Assembly (NCBI GenBank): GCA_903824935.1
Contig: CAIJYT010000028.1
Coordinates: 1 to 38,944 of the forward strand
Source: an uncultured Bacteroidales bacterium
GTDB taxonomy: Bacteria > Bacteroidota > Bacteroidia > Bacteroidales > FEN-979
DNA: 38,944 nt
Reading direction: 5' to 3'
The translations under genes were made by a program, and so were the position numbers. Shown here piece after piece: positions 6,821 through 33,954 of the stretch. How positions within the stretch are numbered: the stretch's first letter is position 1; the number at the start of each line of letters is the position of its first letter. The notes under the pieces are model-generated. The model worked only from the letters and a program-made list of their open reading frames with translations, did no database searches and was not told where the DNA came from.

Positions 6821-7885
6821 ATGGAAAAAGACCGTACATATTTTGAAGGGCTCATTGCCAGGTATTTCAGCAAGGAAGCAACGCCTGCCGAGATCGGTGA
6901 GCTCTCCTCATGGGTCACTGAGAGCCCCGAGAACGAAGCTGTTTTCAGTGAGTCGCGATATGCATGGATGGCATTTGAAGAAGTGAGGATCACCGGGTTG
7001 GCCGATGTGGATGAAGCATGGGAGGCGTTTAAAGAGCGGGCAGGGATAAATGAAGAGACCAAGTCGGCAGTCGTCAGTCGGCAGAAAGTAGTCAGCAGTC
7101 GGCAGTCGGCAGTCGGCAGTCAGCAGTCAAATATACCAAGAGCAATTCCGATGTACAATATTCTGCTAAGGGTAGCAGCTGTCCTCATTATTCTAGCTTT
7201 TCCTGCATTTCACCTTTACAAATACCTTCAGCAGCCAGCAATAAAAGAATTTGCAGCGGGAACCGGCCGTGCCGAAACCCTTCTGCCCGATGGCTCCCAT
7301 GTGATGCTCAATTCCGGTGCTGTGATTAAATACCCTGAAAGATTCAAAGGAAAGAAAAGGGCTGTCAGCCTTGACGGGGAAGCTTATTTTGATGTTGCTC
7401 ATAATGCTTCAAAACCTTTTATCATAGCAACCGACGGGATCAGGGTAGAAGTGAAAGGAACCTCCTTTTATATAAACACTCGTTCATGGAGCGGGGATTT
7501 TGAACTGGTGCTTACATCGGGCAAGGTCGAACTTTATTTTGAAAATCAGCCAGGCCAGGCCAGGGTTCTCAACCCAGGCGAAAAAGCCATTGTACACGGT
7601 AACCAGATCATCATCAGTACGAATACCGACGCCAACTATATGGCCTGGAAAACCCACAAGATCTCCTTTAACAATGAGCCCCTTAATTCAGTGGCGGCTA
7701 CCTTAAGCAAGGTATACCAGGCTAATGTACGCCTCGGCAATACTTCACTTGCCGGTTGCAGGCTCACAGCGACCTTCGACAATCAATCCCTTGAATCTGT
7801 ACTAAACGTTCTTAAAGCAACGTTAGATGTAGATATCAGGAATTCCGGATCTTTGGTGGAAATTTCCGGCAAAGGATGCAGATAA
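6821..7885 (+). CDS. FecR-family anti-sigma factor
   Basis: Single TM at about aa 112-130; GRAETLLPDGSHVMLNSGAVIKYPERFKGKKRAVSLDGEAYFDVAHNASKPFIIATDGIRVEVKGTSFYI FecR signature; DUF4974-like C-terminus. Confidence 0.93.
   Translation: MEKDRTYFEGLIARYFSKEATPAEIGELSSWVTESPENEAVFSESRYAWMAFEEVRITGLADVDEAWEAFKERAGINEETKSAVVSRQKVVSSRQSAVGSQQSNIPRAIPMYNILLRVAAVLIILAFPAFHLYKYLQQPAIKEFAAGTGRAETLLPDGSHVMLNSGAVIKYPERFKGKKRAVSLDGEAYFDVAHNASKPFIIATDGIRVEVKGTSFYINTRSWSGDFELVLTSGKVELYFENQPGQARVLNPGEKAIVHGNQIIISTNTDANYMAWKTHKISFNNEPLNSVAATLSKVYQANVRLGNTSLAGCRLTATFDNQSLESVLNVLKATLDVDIRNSGSLVEISGKGCR
7063..7128 (+). repeat. (GTCGGCA/GTCAGCA)n short tandem repeat inside fecR
   Basis: gtcggcagtcgtcagtcggcagaaagtagtcagcagtcggcagtcggcagtcggcagtcagcagtc, translated as SAVVSRQKVVSSRQSAVGSQQS. 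Confidence 0.9.
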
Positions 7886-11424: not shown

Positions 11425-11615
11425 TCGCTCGCACATCTCACCGCCGCTGACGTTACTGCGTCGCTCACCAGTGCTTGAACAGTAATTAAACCAGATATGG
11501 TTCGCTCCTTGTACCTAAGGCGGCTTGTGAGATGTGCTTCGCTTCGGACACCTGATGCGGCTTGTGTGATACGAACCGCTCATTACAATGCGGCTTTTAT
11601 AGAATGCTTCGCTAA
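11425..11615 (+). repeat. Dispersed covarying hairpin element, copy A (one left arm, three right-end units)
   Basis: Left CGCTCGCACATCTCACCGCCGC (11426-11447); right GGCGGCTTGTGAGATGTGCTTCGC (11519-11542). Conserved boxes TGCGTCGCTCA and TTCGCTCCTTG; further right units to about 11612. Confidence 0.85.
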
Positions 11616-11621
11616 AATTAA

Positions 11622-11646
11622 TTTCGCTACTTCGCTATTTCGCTAC
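11622..11646 (+). repeat. TTCGCTACTTCGCTATTTCGCTAC short tandem repeat
   Basis: Direct reading. Same word family as 24320-24446. Confidence 0.85.
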
Positions 11647-11727
11647 TTTTTTTCAAAATGAATCAGGGTAGAACCCTCCACCTGTGTATAATAGAAAAAC
11701 AAAAGAATCAAACCTCAAAACCATAGC

Positions 11728-14566: not shown

Positions 14567-16354
14567 TTACGATTCACGGTTCACGGTTCGCGGTTCACGC
14601 CTCAGCCTGCTGTTTTTCCTGGAATACAGTATATAGATCGCCATCCCTATAAGGAGCCAGACAAGGAACCTCATCCAGTTGGTAAATCCCAGGTGAACCA
14701 TCAGGAAAAGGCTTGAAAGAAGGCCCAGCAGCGGGATCAGCGATAACTTCCTGATGATCCCCATCACTGTAAGGATCACGGCGGCAATGATGAAAATAAA
14801 CAAGGGCAGGTCATCCCTGTCAAAAGTAAAGTTGGTAAGCCTGCCAAGCTCCCTGAGTTCAGGCGGGTTCCAGAAGTAAAGCACCACCGCAACCCCGGCC
14901 CAGACCACGGGAAGCACGATGCGGGAGTTTATGTATGGGACGTGGAAGCCCTTTTGAGTAGTCTGCAGTCTGTAGTCTGCAGTCTGCAAATTGCCGACTG
15001 CCGACTGCTGACTTCTCTTGCCATAGGGGTTCAATATCAGCACACCTCCGCTCACCAGGACAAACGCAAACAGGGTACCTATGCTAGTCAGGTCTGTGAC
15101 TTCGGTGAAGTTCATGAACAGGGATGGGATGGCTACTAATAGCCCGGCAACAACAGTAGAAAAAGAGGGTGTTCTGAATTTGGGATGTATCCTCGAAAAG
15201 GCTTTCGGCAATAAACCGTCGCGGCTCATGCTCATCCAGATACGGGGTTGACCCACCTGGAAGACCAGGATCACACTGGCCATAGCGATGACGGCTGCCA
15301 GTGAAACAAAGCCTGCAAATTTAGCCATATGGTTTCTTTCAAACACATAGGCCAGGGGGTCTCCTACACCGAGTTCCGAAAAATTCACCATGCCAGTGAG
15401 AACCAGGCTGATCATGACATACAAAAAGGTTGTTATGATGAGAGAGTATATGATTGCCCTTGGCAGGTCGCGGCGTGTATTCCTGCATTCTTCAGCAGTA
15501 GTGGATATTGCATCAAAGCCGATATAAGCAAAGAACACCCCGGAAACTCCTTTGAGCACACCGGTTAGCCCATGAGGGGCAAAGGGTGTCCAATTGCCGG
15601 GTTTCACGTAAAATGACCCTACCCCAATGACCAGCAGCAATACCACGACTTTCAGGATCACCATGGAGTTACCAACCACTTTGGTTTCGTAAATCCCGAT
15701 ATAAACCAGCATGGAAATAAGGGCGACAATCGCAAAGGCAGGAATGTTGGCAATCATATGAACGCCTCCAAGTACAGGAGAATTAACCCAGGCCAGGTAT
15801 GATTTCTGTATAGCGGGGGCCAGTTGGGACAGGCTGCTGCCATGAGCAATGGCTGCGGCTCCGTCATAATAACCCCTCAGCGCGGTAACGTAATCTGTCG
15901 ATACATATTCGGGGATGTGAAGGCCCAACCCGCTCATCAGTCCACAAAAATAATCAGACCATGAAATCGCCACGGCTATGTTCCCGATGGCATATTCAAT
16001 GATAAGGTCCCAGCCGATGATCCACGCGAAAAGCTCTCCGAAACTGGCATAGGCATAGGTGTAAGCGCTGCCGCTAAGGGGGATGACCGAAGCAAATTCG
16101 GCATAACATAAGGCTGAAAAACCACAGGCTATGGCTGTAAAAATAAAGAGCAGGGCAACTGCAGGCCCGCCCGAGGCTGCAGCACTTCCTATGGTGGCGA
16201 AGATACCCGATCCGACAATGGCGGCAATCCCCAATGCGGTGAGGTCAAACACGGTAAGGCTTCGCCTGAGGCCTCCCGATTCCCGCTCGTACCTTGCGGC
16301 ATCATTGAGAATCAGGCCTATCGGCTTCTTTCTAATAAGATCGGAAAACGACAA
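14567..16354 (-). CDS. APC-family amino acid permease
   Basis: LTVFDLTALGIAAIVGSGIFATIGSAAASGGPAVALLFIFTAIACGFSALCYAEFAS and FAYIGFDAISTTAEECRNTRRDLPRAIIYSL. Confidence 0.93.
   Translation of the reverse strand: MSFSDLIRKKPIGLILNDAARYERESGGLRRSLTVFDLTALGIAAIVGSGIFATIGSAAASGGPAVALLFIFTAIACGFSALCYAEFASVIPLSGSAYTYAYASFGELFAWIIGWDLIIEYAIGNIAVAISWSDYFCGLMSGLGLHIPEYVSTDYVTALRGYYDGAAAIAHGSSLSQLAPAIQKSYLAWVNSPVLGGVHMIANIPAFAIVALISMLVYIGIYETKVVGNSMVILKVVVLLLVIGVGSFYVKPGNWTPFAPHGLTGVLKGVSGVFFAYIGFDAISTTAEECRNTRRDLPRAIIYSLIITTFLYVMISLVLTGMVNFSELGVGDPLAYVFERNHMAKFAGFVSLAAVIAMASVILVFQVGQPRIWMSMSRDGLLPKAFSRIHPKFRTPSFSTVVAGLLVAIPSLFMNFTEVTDLTSIGTLFAFVLVSGGVLILNPYGKRSQQSAVGNLQTADYRLQTTQKGFHVPYINSRIVLPVVWAGVAVVLYFWNPPELRELGRLTNFTFDRDDLPLFIFIIAAVILTVMGIIRKLSLIPLLGLLSSLFLMVHLGFTNWMRFLVWLLIGMAIYILYSRKNSRLRREPRTVNRES
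14571..14600 (+). repeat. GGTTCACG-type short tandem repeat covering the permease C-terminal codons
   Basis: gattcacggttcacggttcgcggttcacgc; translated on minus as ...REPRTVNRES. Confidence 0.85.
14957..15013 (+). repeat. AGTCTGCAGTCTGTAGTCTGCAGTCTGC...GCCGACTGCCGACTGC repeat inside permease gene
   Basis: Direct reading; translated on minus strand as SQQSAVGNLQTADYRLQTT. Confidence 0.88.
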
Positions 16355-16481
16355 GGTAATTTTTGGATAAAAATAGAAAGATTTTCAATCACTCTTGGTA
16401 ATTTCACCCCGGTTTGCTGCAGAAACGGGTGCCTGAATTGCTCCGGGCTTATACCGGAGTAAAGGCTTTGACGGAAAAATT

Positions 16482-16513
16482 CCGGTTCACGGTTCACGGT
16501 TCACGGTTCACGA
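16482..16513 (+). repeat. CCGGTTCACGGTTCACGGTTCACGGTTCACG short tandem repeat
   Basis: Direct reading; same word as 14571-14600. Immediately upstream of a TAnnTTTG box. Confidence 0.9.
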
Positions 16514-19617: not shown

Positions 19618-19642
19618 CGATAATTTATCGTGTTGAACACTT

Positions 19643-19760
19643 AGCTCACATCTTTACAACGCTGCTAAGGTTGCTGCGTCACGCACGCATACTTATTCCC
19701 TTGGCATAAGCAGTTGAAATTCGCTCCTTGCACCTGATGCAGCTTTGTATAATGTTCGCT
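19643..19760 (+). repeat. Dispersed covarying hairpin element, copy B
   Basis: Left AGCTCACATCTTTACAACGCTGC; right GATGCAGCTTTGTATAATGTTCGCT; conserved GGTTGCTGCGTC and TTCGCTCCTTGCACCTGATGC boxes. Confidence 0.82.
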
Positions 19761-20603: not shown

Positions 20604-20770
20604 TTCGCTCGCAATAATGCAATGCCGCATTGGCTTGCAGTTTTACATCGCCGCTGTCGCTCGCAACAATGCACCGCCGCTACGGTGTCTGCGTCGCATA
20701 TGCATTTGTTGTTTCTCCAACCCTCTGGAGGCTCCTTGCACCTGATGCGGCTTGTGCATTTTGCTTCGCT
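20604..20770 (+). repeat. Dispersed covarying hairpin element, copy C (extra left unit)
   Basis: Left CGCTCGCAACAATGCACCGCCGC (20658-20680); right GATGCGGCTTGTGCATTTTGCTTCGCT (20744-20770); extra left unit TTCGCTCGCAATAATGCAATGCCGC upstream. Confidence 0.85.
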
Positions 20771-22094: not shown

Positions 22095-23525
22095 TCATAT
22101 TTTCGACATGTCTATCATGAATTCCATCGGCCGCTCGGGGGTGTTGCAATGCAGTACACAGGCTTCACAGATTTGCAATTCTCCCTGCAGGCGTTTCTTC
22201 ACCATATCTTCTATTCGGTACCTCAGCGGCTCAATGTCAATTTTACTGATCACCTCATCCGCATACGCATACATTAAAAGCATTCGGGCACTGTCTTCAC
22301 CAATCCCTCTCTGCCTCAGGTAATACATCGCATCCTGGTCGAGCTGCCCTGTTGTTGAACCATGGGAACATTTCACGTCATCATTGTAGATCTCGAGAAA
22401 AGGCTTTGAATTCACTTTTGCAGTTTCCGTCAGCAGGATATTCCTGTTGCTCTGGTATGCATTGGTGCGCTGCGCATCCCTGCGAACCAGCACATGTCCG
22501 TTGAAAACCCCGCTTGAATGCTCATCAAGTATCCCTTTAAAAAGCTCGCTGCTTGTACAGTCGGGGGACGCATGGTCAATGAAAACCTGGTTATCGATAT
22601 GCTGCTTGCGGTCCATCAGGTAGATCCCGTAAACATTGGCGCCGCCGTGAGGGCCGTTAAATCTCAGCCTGAGATTGTTCCTTAGCAATCCTCCGTTGAG
22701 CGAAATATAATGGGACTCAAGTTTGGCGGCAGTTTCAAGCTCGAAATATGAAGAACTGATAAGAGTGGAGCTGTTGTTAAGATTCTGAAGCTTGTAATGA
22801 TCCATAAAGGCAGCTTCTCCCATATGTATCTCGGTTACAACATTTGAGAACGAAGCCTGCTGGTTATATGAATCATCGCAATGCACCAGCGAAAGCCTGC
22901 TGTTCTTCCCCAAAACAATAAGGTTCCTCGATTGCAGGAAAAGGTTCTCATTACTGTGGATGACATTGATGATCTGCACCGGCTTCGGGCTTTTTACATC
23001 ATCCGGCACATAAATGAAAACACCGTCCATGATAAAAGCCGTATTCAGCGAAGTAAATGCATCCCCGTTTGAACCGGAATATTTTCCAAGGTGGGCTTCC
23101 ACCAGTTCCGGATATTGCTTCAGGGCTTCAGCCAGGCTTCCCATGATTATGCCGTTCCCAAGCTTCATCAAAGGCACATCCTTGGATACATACCAGCTGT
23201 TAAGCTGCCCCATGATAGCCGTATCGAGATGAGGAATATTGCAAAGGAAAACTTTCTGAACATCCACACCCGTCTCGGGTTGCACGACCACCTTGTATTC
23301 AGTTGAAAAACTTTCCTTCAGGCTGGTATTCTTCCAGGCTTCAAGCTTAGTGGTAGGAAATCCTGATTCTTCAAAACTGCGGATGGCTTTATCCCTTAAA
23401 ACCGTCAGCGCCGGGTAATCATTGACAGATAAAGCCTCACGGCATTCCCTGTAAAGGGCTGCCATCAGTTCCTTTGTAATATTTCTCCTTACTGAATCCT
23501 GCATCTTGTATCCTGCATCTTGCAT
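22095..23525 (-). CDS. sufD: SufD Fe-S cluster assembly protein
   Basis: SELFKGILDEHSSGVFNGHVLVRRDAQRTNAYQSNRNILLTETAKVNSKPFLEIYNDDVKCSHGSTTGQLDQDAMYYLRQRGI. The exact N-terminus is uncertain. Confidence 0.95.
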   Translation of the reverse strand: MQDAGYKMQDSVRRNITKELMAALYRECREALSVNDYPALTVLRDKAIRSFEESGFPTTKLEAWKNTSLKESFSTEYKVVVQPETGVDVQKVFLCNIPHLDTAIMGQLNSWYVSKDVPLMKLGNGIIMGSLAEALKQYPELVEAHLGKYSGSNGDAFTSLNTAFIMDGVFIYVPDDVKSPKPVQIINVIHSNENLFLQSRNLIVLGKNSRLSLVHCDDSYNQQASFSNVVTEIHMGEAAFMDHYKLQNLNNSSTLISSSYFELETAAKLESHYISLNGGLLRNNLRLRFNGPHGGANVYGIYLMDRKQHIDNQVFIDHASPDCTSSELFKGILDEHSSGVFNGHVLVRRDAQRTNAYQSNRNILLTETAKVNSKPFLEIYNDDVKCSHGSTTGQLDQDAMYYLRQRGIGEDSARMLLMYAYADEVISKIDIEPLRYRIEDMVKKRLQGELQICEACVLHCNTPERPMEFMIDMSKI

Positions 23526-23530
23526 CCTGA
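23496..23530 (+). repeat. AATCCTGCATCTTGTATCCTGCATCTTGCATCCTGA repeat over the annotated sufD start
   Basis: Direct reading; gives N-terminal MQDAGYKMQDS. Confidence 0.88.
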
Positions 23531-23531
23531 C

Positions 23532-24287
23532 TTACCCCTCCTGCTCTTTTCTGATCCAGTCATACCCTTTTTCCTCCAGTTCCAGGGCAAGTTCCCTGGT
23601 CCCGGATTTTACAATCCTGCCTTCAAACAGCACATGAACGAAATCGGGAACAATATAATCGAGAAGCCTCTGGTAATGGGTGATGATTACGAAAGCGTTT
23701 TCCCTGGTGCGTAATTTGTTCACACCATTTGCAACTACCCTAAGGGCGTCAATATCAAGGCCCGAATCAGTTTCGTCGAGTATGGCCAGTTCAGGTTCTA
23801 GCATGGCCATCTGGAAAATCTCGTTCTTCTTTTTCTCTCCCCCCGAAAATCCTTCATTCACCGAGCGGTTGGCAAGGTTGGAAGTAAGTTCGACCAGCTT
23901 TTTCTTTTCTTCCATCAGTTTCAGGAAAGCACTGCCCGAAAGGGGATCCAGGCCTTTATACTTCCTCACCTCGTTTACTGCGGTGCGCATAAAATTGGTG
24001 ATGCTCACCCCCGGTATTTCAACAGGGTACTGGAAACCCAGGAAAATGCCTTCCCTTGCCCGTTCTTCAACTGCAAGCTTCAGCAGGTTCTTGTCCCTGT
24101 AAATGATCTCCCCGGCAGTTGCATCAAAGACTTCCCTGCCTGCGATCACCGAGGCGAGGGTGCTTTTTCCCGTACCGTTTGGGCCCATGATAGCATGAAC
24201 CTCCCCATGATCCACATCAAGATCTATTCCTTTTAATATTTCCTTCCCGTTGATGGACGCATGAAGGTTTTTAATTGATAAGAGCAT
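23532..24287 (-). CDS. sufC: SufC Fe-S assembly ATPase
   Basis: IMGPNGTGKSTLASVIAG; GFSGGEKKKNEIFQMAMLEPELAILDETDSGLDIDAL. Confidence 0.97.
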   Translation of the reverse strand: MLLSIKNLHASINGKEILKGIDLDVDHGEVHAIMGPNGTGKSTLASVIAGREVFDATAGEIIYRDKNLLKLAVEERAREGIFLGFQYPVEIPGVSITNFMRTAVNEVRKYKGLDPLSGSAFLKLMEEKKKLVELTSNLANRSVNEGFSGGEKKKNEIFQMAMLEPELAILDETDSGLDIDALRVVANGVNKLRTRENAFVIITHYQRLLDYIVPDFVHVLFEGRIVKSGTRELALELEEKGYDWIRKEQEG

Positions 24288-24319
24288 ATTCCTGTTATTC
24301 GTATTATATTATTTATTAA

Positions 24320-24446
24320 GTAGCGAAGTGGCGAAATCGCGAAGTAGCGAAATAAAAACGATATTTTTATGTTGATTCATTTCCCCAATATTTATAATAT
24401 AACTCTTCAATTTTCGCTATCTCGCTATTTCGCTACTTCGCTACTA
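24320..24446. repeat. Imperfect inverted repeat between sufB and sufC
   Basis: Left GTAGCGAAGTGGCGAAATCGCGAAGTAGCGAAAT; right reverse complement AGTAGCGAAGTAGCGAAATAGCGAGATAGCGAAAAT; AT-rich loop of about 60 nt. Confidence 0.88.
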
Positions 24447-26141: not shown

Positions 26142-26156
26142 ACCGGGAGTGATTAA

Positions 26157-26196
26157 ATCCTGCATCCTGCATCCTGTATCCTGTATCCTGCATCTC
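26157..26196 (+). repeat. (ATCCTGC/ATCCTGT)n short tandem repeat
   Basis: aatcctgcatcctgcatcctgtatcctgtatcctgcatct. Confidence 0.9.
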
Positions 26197-27487: not shown

Positions 27488-27694
27488 AAAGCGAAGCACA
27501 TCACACAAGCTGCTTTCGCTCGCATATTTGCATCGCGGCTTTCTCTCGCATATTTGCATCGCGGCTACGGTTGCTGCGTCGCTCAGTTATCAATTTACCG
27601 AAGGCCAGACCGGATGTATTTCGCTCCTTGCACCTGATGCCGCTGATGCAAAATGCTTCGCTCCATAAAATACGGCTTGTGTGAAGTGCTTCAC
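27488..27694 (+). repeat. Dispersed covarying hairpin element, copy D (nested inner and outer arm pairs, 26-bp tandem left unit)
   Basis: Outer GCGAAGCACATCACACAAGCTGC (27491-27513) / ACGGCTTGTGTGAAGTGCTTCAC (27672-27694). Inner CTCGCATATTTGCATCGCGGC (27545-27565) / GATGCCGCTGATGCAAAATGCTTCGCT (27636-27662). Confidence 0.87.
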
Positions 27695-33790: not shown

Positions 33791-33939
33791 AAGCGAAGCA
33801 TTTTACATAAGCCGCATCAGTTATCTGGAGCGAAGCACATCGCATTAGCCGCCTCAGGTGCGAGGAGCTTGTTTAATGCCAGAAGAGCCTTTCATCATAT
33901 TGCTCCGCTGCCACCGTAGCGGCATTGTGATGTGCGAGC
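33791..33939 (-). repeat. Dispersed covarying hairpin element, copy E (inverted orientation, extra end unit)
   Basis: AGCGAAGCACATCGCATTAGCCGCC (33829-33853) / GCGGCATTGTGATGTGCGAGC (33919-33939), plus end unit AAGCGAAGCATTTTACATAAGCCGCATCAG (33791-33820). Confidence 0.85.
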
Positions 33940-33954
33940 CTAAGACTCTGGAAA

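Follow-up and report, generated by a model that had tools for sequence, protein, structure and literature searches.

We describe a family of short hairpins dispersed between the genes of an uncultured Bacteroidales bacterium and its relatives, which probably represents a lineage-specific, unnamed group of REPIN/MITE-like mobile DNA hairpins. The stretch analysed here (hereafter the window) comprises 38,944 nucleotides, corresponds to contig C28 in a draft genome of 3.63 Mb, and carries five copies, termed A to E. The first-pass annotation of this stretch had proposed these five elements as members of a dispersed hairpin family with covariation. All five are seen on reading the sequence, and 5/5 were recovered by model search; pairing and covariation exceeded those in 500 of 500 shuffles and in every slid register. 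The same annotation recognised no named family, and a search of Rfam, both at the gathering threshold and with E values up to 10, likewise gave no match. A published description of the family was not found in the literature searched, a coverage that leaves most subscription journals and preprints outside. The copies in the window and their parts are as follows.

27490..27693, + strand: element D, complete nested hairpin, with the inner hairpin within the outer arm pair
27490..27513, + strand: outer left arm of D, AGCGAAGCACATCACACAAGCTGC, a right-hand unit reversed (repeat family D8)
27515..27540, + strand: left unit of D, first copy, TTCGCTCGCATATTTGCATCGCGGCT
27541..27566, + strand: left unit of D, second copy, with one mismatch; contains the left arm with an extrahelical A and the GCGGC box
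27561..27585, + strand: left core of D, GCGGCTACGGTTGCTGCGTCGCTCA
27586..27618, + strand: variable loop of D
27619..27643, + strand: right core of D, TTTCGCTCCTTGCACCTGATGCCGC, with the compensating box GCCGC
27644..27662, + strand: inner right arm of D, TGATGCAAAATGCTTCGCT
27669..27693, + strand: outer right arm of D, TACGGCTTGTGTGAAGTGCTTCACT
27542-27662, + strand: inner hairpin of D, from model search and sequence reading
11425..11543, + strand: element A, GACGTTACTGCGTC core subtype
11544..11614, + strand: two more right-hand units 3' of A
11618..11650, + strand: octamer array ATTTCGCT/ACTTCGCT adjoining A
19642..19760, + strand: element B, box GCTGC/GCAGC
20604..20656, + strand: two more left-hand units 5' of C (repeat family D7)
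20657..20770, + strand: element C, whose orthologous site varies by species
33829..33941, - strand: element E, GCGGAGC core subtype
33792..33828, - strand: extra right-hand unit adjoining E (repeat family D8)

Element D had been singled out as the most elaborate of these copies, and most of what had been noted about it holds: its inner and outer arms both pair in the MFE fold, its 26-bp direct tandem (27515-27540 and 27541-27566) does differ by one mismatch, and its switch of box to GCGGC/GCCGC, with a right box that matches, is real. The switch is nevertheless nothing special, and the annotation's view of D as exceptional is not supported. Among the 96 parsed copies of the family, the box pair is GCCGC/GCGGC in 50, GCGGC/GCCGC in 21, and GCTGC/GCAGC, the pair by which B also deviates, in 10; the minor pairs GCAGC/GCTGC and GGTGC/GCACC account for 4 and 1, respectively. 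The middle pair of the box is seen as C-G, G-C, U-A, and A-U.

The consensus unit begins with the foot TCGCTCGC, followed by an arm of 11-12 nt, the box GCNGC, TAC, GGT, and then a loop of ~5 to 60 nt; on the other side of the loop come ACC, TGAT, the matching box GCNGC, TT, the complementary arm, and the foot GCTTCGCT. Loops are longer in the window genome, where several subtypes occur, and a compact form of 66-74 nt predominates in the relatives. Tandem extra left or right units adjoin many copies, and in G002 and G003 hairpins lie in the loops of other hairpins (L154, L155, and L157-L160). The stem itself is interrupted in a regular manner: TAC and TGAT form a fixed 3x4 internal loop, a 1x2 junction loop (C/TT) is present in 93/96 parsed copies, and an extra base stands in the left arm of 82/96 parsed copies versus the right arm of 2/96 (the extra arm bases are 61 C, 13 A, 7 T, and 2 G). 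These irregularities are constant while the pairs adjoining them vary. The tetranucleotide CTAC (GTAG on the opposite strand) lies inside the internal loop and not at the foot, and CGTC is present only within some of the loops.

The covariance-model search of the genome that the annotation had suggested was carried out with a model built from 38 copies and returned 55 matches, corresponding to about 50 copies because two loci (C61 and C288) were read on both strands. The right-hand box had 50 matches in the genome at up to 3 mismatches, versus 0 for a reversed control pattern. Hairpin copies were also found in 7/7 other species of the genus, with at least 4 to 43 in each, and the relatives that bear names are uncultured Bacteroidales MAGs, several of them lake-derived. 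Among 28 copies with their gene context, 13 lie between convergent, 10 between tandem, and 5 between divergent genes, and both orientations occur; in the tandem contexts, the element has the same orientation as the genes in 6 cases and the opposite in 4. The strand of the copies relative to GC skew in G002 showed a weak excess by eye, which was not significant. Matches from a pattern scan of the genome collection that fell outside the Bacteroidales genus lacked matched arms and were dismissed as chance.

In alignment A3 (50 distinct copies as rows and 950 pair cells), the rows of which were picked by extra-base position in a pairing-based alignment and so lean slightly towards pairing, standard pairs make up 98.0% of cells versus 87.8% after shuffling, and the covariation score is 0.288 versus 0.093. 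Two-sided changes occupy 100 cells versus 26.9 expected and one-sided changes only 4, counts that overstate independent events since related copies enter as separate cells. None of 500 shuffles (0/500) reached the observed values, and sliding the register left at most 52% pairing. An earlier MAFFT alignment of 38 rows, made without reference to structure, gave the same picture of covariation. Among 989 arm pairs, 964 are Watson-Crick, 7 are G-T, and 18 are other mismatches, 8 of these being A-C.

The annotation had further held that the arms differ by locus and always match their own partner, and this stands in part. The own-partner score averages 7.67 in the long copies (n=41) and 6.90 in the compact copies (n=42), whereas the highest values among 5000 shuffles were 5.82 and 5.60, respectively, so that on average arms do not fit other loci equally well. 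However, the own partner is best or tied best in only 11/41 long and 21/42 compact copies, about 12% (median) of foreign right arms fit equally well, and individual arms are often interchangeable. The own partner is often not the best because arms in the genus are drawn from a limited vocabulary, and 'locus-specific' therefore describes a strong tendency rather than uniqueness. In addition, the identity of loop and core is uncorrelated with that of the arms (r = -0.01, 496 pairs); cores and arms therefore have partly separate histories, which could have arisen by recombination, by insertion into resident hairpins, or by fast matched drift.

The window region is syntenic in six other species at about 77% identity, and the pattern between species is one of site turnover and, at D, of concerted change. 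At site C, the copy is of the compact form in G002 and G004 and of the long form in G006, where its matched arms are different ones; the site is empty in G003, G005, and G007. Site D in G004 carries a compact copy with a duplicated left unit, CGCTCGCAATCTTGCACCGCGGC x2, whereas the duplicated left unit in the window is CGCTCGCATATTTGCATCGCGGC, with an altered foot in its second copy; the duplicated units thus differ, and the right arms match each own version; between the window species and G004, the two left units have changed in concert with the right arm. Only a remnant is retained at this site in G002, G005, and G006. Copies at sites B and E are confined to the window species, and the arms were not found at the empty orthologous sites.

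The family extends beyond the genus. A compact-form model, the alignment of which included one g3 copy, gave matches in the sister genera g3 and g4, and these homologues have other arms and the same architecture, including both the junction loop and the internal loop. Five loci of G031 (L489, L459, L465, L466, and L164, the last counted here although its source may be G034 instead) share the core CGCARCTRCGGC-[50]-GCCTGAGGYTGCTT and have mutually unrelated arms of 14-19 nt, each matching its own partner; in L466, the nested arm pairs differ at one base pair, with a matching change in both right arms. In G012 (g6), 152 kb were scanned by structure and showed no element. A match in G040 (g3) was rejected as a sign of the element's presence, as its contig agrees at 99-100% identity along 3 kb with contigs from another bin and from G002 (loci L162 and L185) and is probably mis-binned, judging from this identity.

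Several other repeats and rearrangements were observed. Tandem arrays of heptamer type (AGTCGGC, TTCACGG, CCTGCAT) lie in the spacers at 7062-7129, 14963-15016, 16480-16512, 23485-23534, and 26146-26195, and the orthologous spacers at E (33.7-33.95 kb) and C hold arrays of other motifs (TATCCAG, ATTTCACC, CATCGTA, TATTCGA), that is, a different satellite at the same place. Inverted octamer arrays, AGCGAAGT and ACTTCGCT, are found at 24311-24356 and 24412-24446, pointing towards one another, about 55 bp apart and with no hairpin between them. Octamer arrays often flank hairpin copies and also occur without them; they were considered as a part of the element and discarded, being present as well in G012, where no hairpin was detected. 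Two loci, L392 (G000 C61:18590-19040) and L393 (G000 C288:17480-17700), are head-to-head fusions of two left halves with the joint at GGAGC/GCTCC, which look like products of fold-back copying or of inverted recombination.

A Y1/RAYT-type transposase was the mobiliser that the annotation had suggested looking for, and the outcome does not favour it. Exactly one gene matching PF01797, syntenic throughout, is present in 8/8 species of the genus, beside neighbours which we take to be ctaB and an AI-2E transporter from the resemblance of their sequences. Its product, P0001 (L078 1495-1923, 143 aa; orthologues L079-L085 and L294), resembles IS200-type TnpA and solved IS200/IS605-family transposases, including ISHp608 TnpA, and scores 28 bits against NF047646, the cut-off of which is 80. 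By eye, its motifs are DHIH and YILSQE(K/R)(Q/H)H, with HH exact in G001 and G005 and QH in G000 and G002. These motifs resemble those of subclass 1.2 of Quentin et al. (2018), a comparison made by motif; this subclass carries DHIH and the signature Y---Q--HH, is low-copy, comes from Bacteroidetes and Cyanobacteria, and is without a known hairpin substrate (PMC6006769). In all 8 species, the surroundings of the PF01797 gene are free of the element out to about 1.5 kb, and the presence of the gene does not track that of the element: G012 has a P0001 orthologue (59% identity) and no detectable elements, whereas elements are present in G031 and nothing there matches PF01797, both genomes being draft assemblies that are 98% complete. 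Because of the missing flanking element and these two mismatches, the link to Y1 is a minority hypothesis. The protein, which shows no transposon features, has been kept across the genus and in one of its sister genera, and P0001 is apparently a domesticated TnpA.

In the explanation that we prefer, that of a mobile hairpin family, the single-stranded DNA form of the element would fold into an imperfect hairpin, and a protein would read this hairpin in single-stranded DNA. What counts would be the shape, consisting of the stem with its fixed bulges, together with a small number of conserved positions, which would leave the letters of the stem to drift as matched pairs. Copies would spread, presumably by transposition, to sites between genes and also inside the loops of resident copies, and would then decay. 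The literature agrees in that the bulge of the Escherichia coli REP stem is required for processing and activity of TnpA-REP (PMC8266576), and compensatory changes are frequent in REPIN hairpins (PMC3116915). Neither a target-site rule nor an autonomous parent of the family was found, and no transposition event was directly seen, the evidence for mobility being the turnover of sites between species.

One alternative, which we consider unlikely, is that the hairpins arise and persist through template switching during replication (quasipalindrome correction, fold-back copying), their complementarity being a mutational product and their spread being due to recombination and not to a transposase. 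Template switching is a known source of compensatory stem changes (PMC8794818) and would account for the 4 one-sided versus 100 double cells, for the joint difference of the tandem left units and right arm at D between the window species and G004, for the one-base-pair difference in L466 that is matched in both right arms, and for the left-left fusions joined at GGAGC/GCTCC. However, it would remove the extra left-arm base, C/TT, and TAC/TGAT, of which the first persists in 82/96 copies and the second in 93/96, the two loops being found again in sister genera, and alone it leaves the dispersal of a conserved core unexplained. Because the fixed irregularities persist, pure palindrome correction, which would erase them, is disfavoured. 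Therefore, of the two explanations that the annotation had offered, structural constraint fits best, and palindrome correction or template switching may be a contributor. A combined scheme, rather improbable in our opinion, would be a class of hairpins recognised almost entirely by shape and mobilised by an enzyme so far connected with no repeat, either a TnpA of the orphan subclass 1.2 or a protein not of the Y1 type. The conserved core would pass from one resident hairpin to another, and template switching would keep the locus-specific arms matched; if this is true, arms and core would have separate histories.

It is very doubtful that the elements are structured RNAs (3' UTR stabilisers, terminators, or small RNAs) under selection at each site. 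The strong covariation and the location of many copies downstream of genes, with 13/28 between convergent genes, would suit such a role, but there is no Rfam match, orientation in tandem contexts is mixed (6 same, 4 opposite), and sites differ between species. Furthermore, RNA would tolerate G-U, so that the rarity of G-T, no commoner than A-C, points to DNA rather than a folded RNA, and the scarcity of one-sided or G-U intermediates argues against an ordinary RNA gene. The more specific proposal that the hairpin is the substrate of P0001, acting as a RAYT-like mobiliser, is also quite unlikely. The single syntenic gene in each of 8 species would agree with the typically single-copy REP transposases (PMC8266576), as would the similarity to IS200/IS605-family transposases and of its DHIH and YILSQE(K/R)(Q/H)H motifs to subclass 1.2; against this, the gene has no adjoining element, G012 and G031 each have one partner without the other, and the foot carries no recognised guide tetranucleotide. 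Finally, recombination sites of an integron-like system share with the family a folded-strand design with an extrahelical base, an unpaired central spacer, and a variable loop, but an attC-like nature is extremely improbable, as RYYYAAC/GTTRRRY boxes are absent at conserved positions of the alignment, the genes of the window are chromosomal and syntenic and not cassettes, and copies occur in both orientations.

The Bacteroidota thus gain a dispersed hairpin family with unusually clear covariation. Its stem changes are nearly all double and lack wobble intermediates and yet its irregularities persist, which makes it a natural test of selection versus template switching, and nested or duplicated copies can be compared directly across the syntenic sites of seven species. 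A mobiliser, should one come to light, may assign a function to an orphan subclass of HUH transposases or reveal a new one.

Among known systems, the integron attC site is an imperfect hairpin with an extrahelical base and an unpaired spacer, features that the present family shares, although the family is without attC core boxes or cassette organisation. As for derivatives of IS200/IS605 elements, no larger parent element and no guide/cleavage complementarity were recognised among the retrieved loci. The atypical REP-like structures of TnpA-Y1 subclass 2.6 are also specific to Bacteroidetes and have copies elsewhere in the genome (PMC6006769), but they flank their own tnpA, which is of another subclass (NH[LIV]H, YIH[QN]NP), and they are set apart here by description. 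The CGTC-tagged palindromic repeats of Di Nocera et al. (2013) are likewise dispersed, occur in Bacteroidetes too, and are without a dedicated transposase (PMC3733652); they have stems of 8-9 bp, loops of 4-5 nt, and a terminal CGTC, whereas the stems of the present family are longer and interrupted and its loops measure 5-60 nt. REPs and REPINs, with their RAYT (TnpA-REP) transposases, are also short, dispersed, intergenic imperfect palindromes, present many times per genome and built of paired units, with compensatory stem changes (PMC3116915) and a bulge that matters in REP recognition (PMC8266576). However, the feet of the aligned copies, TCGCTCGC and GCTTCGCT, contain no GTAG/GTGG or CGTC, and no repeat-flanked transposase gene accompanies the family; because the foot tetranucleotide and a flanking RAYT are both missing, we do not file it as REP. 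Moreover, in REPINs it is the 16-mer ends that are conserved and the spacer that varies, whereas the family described here conserves its core, boxes, and feet, varies its arms, and nests hairpins inside hairpins.
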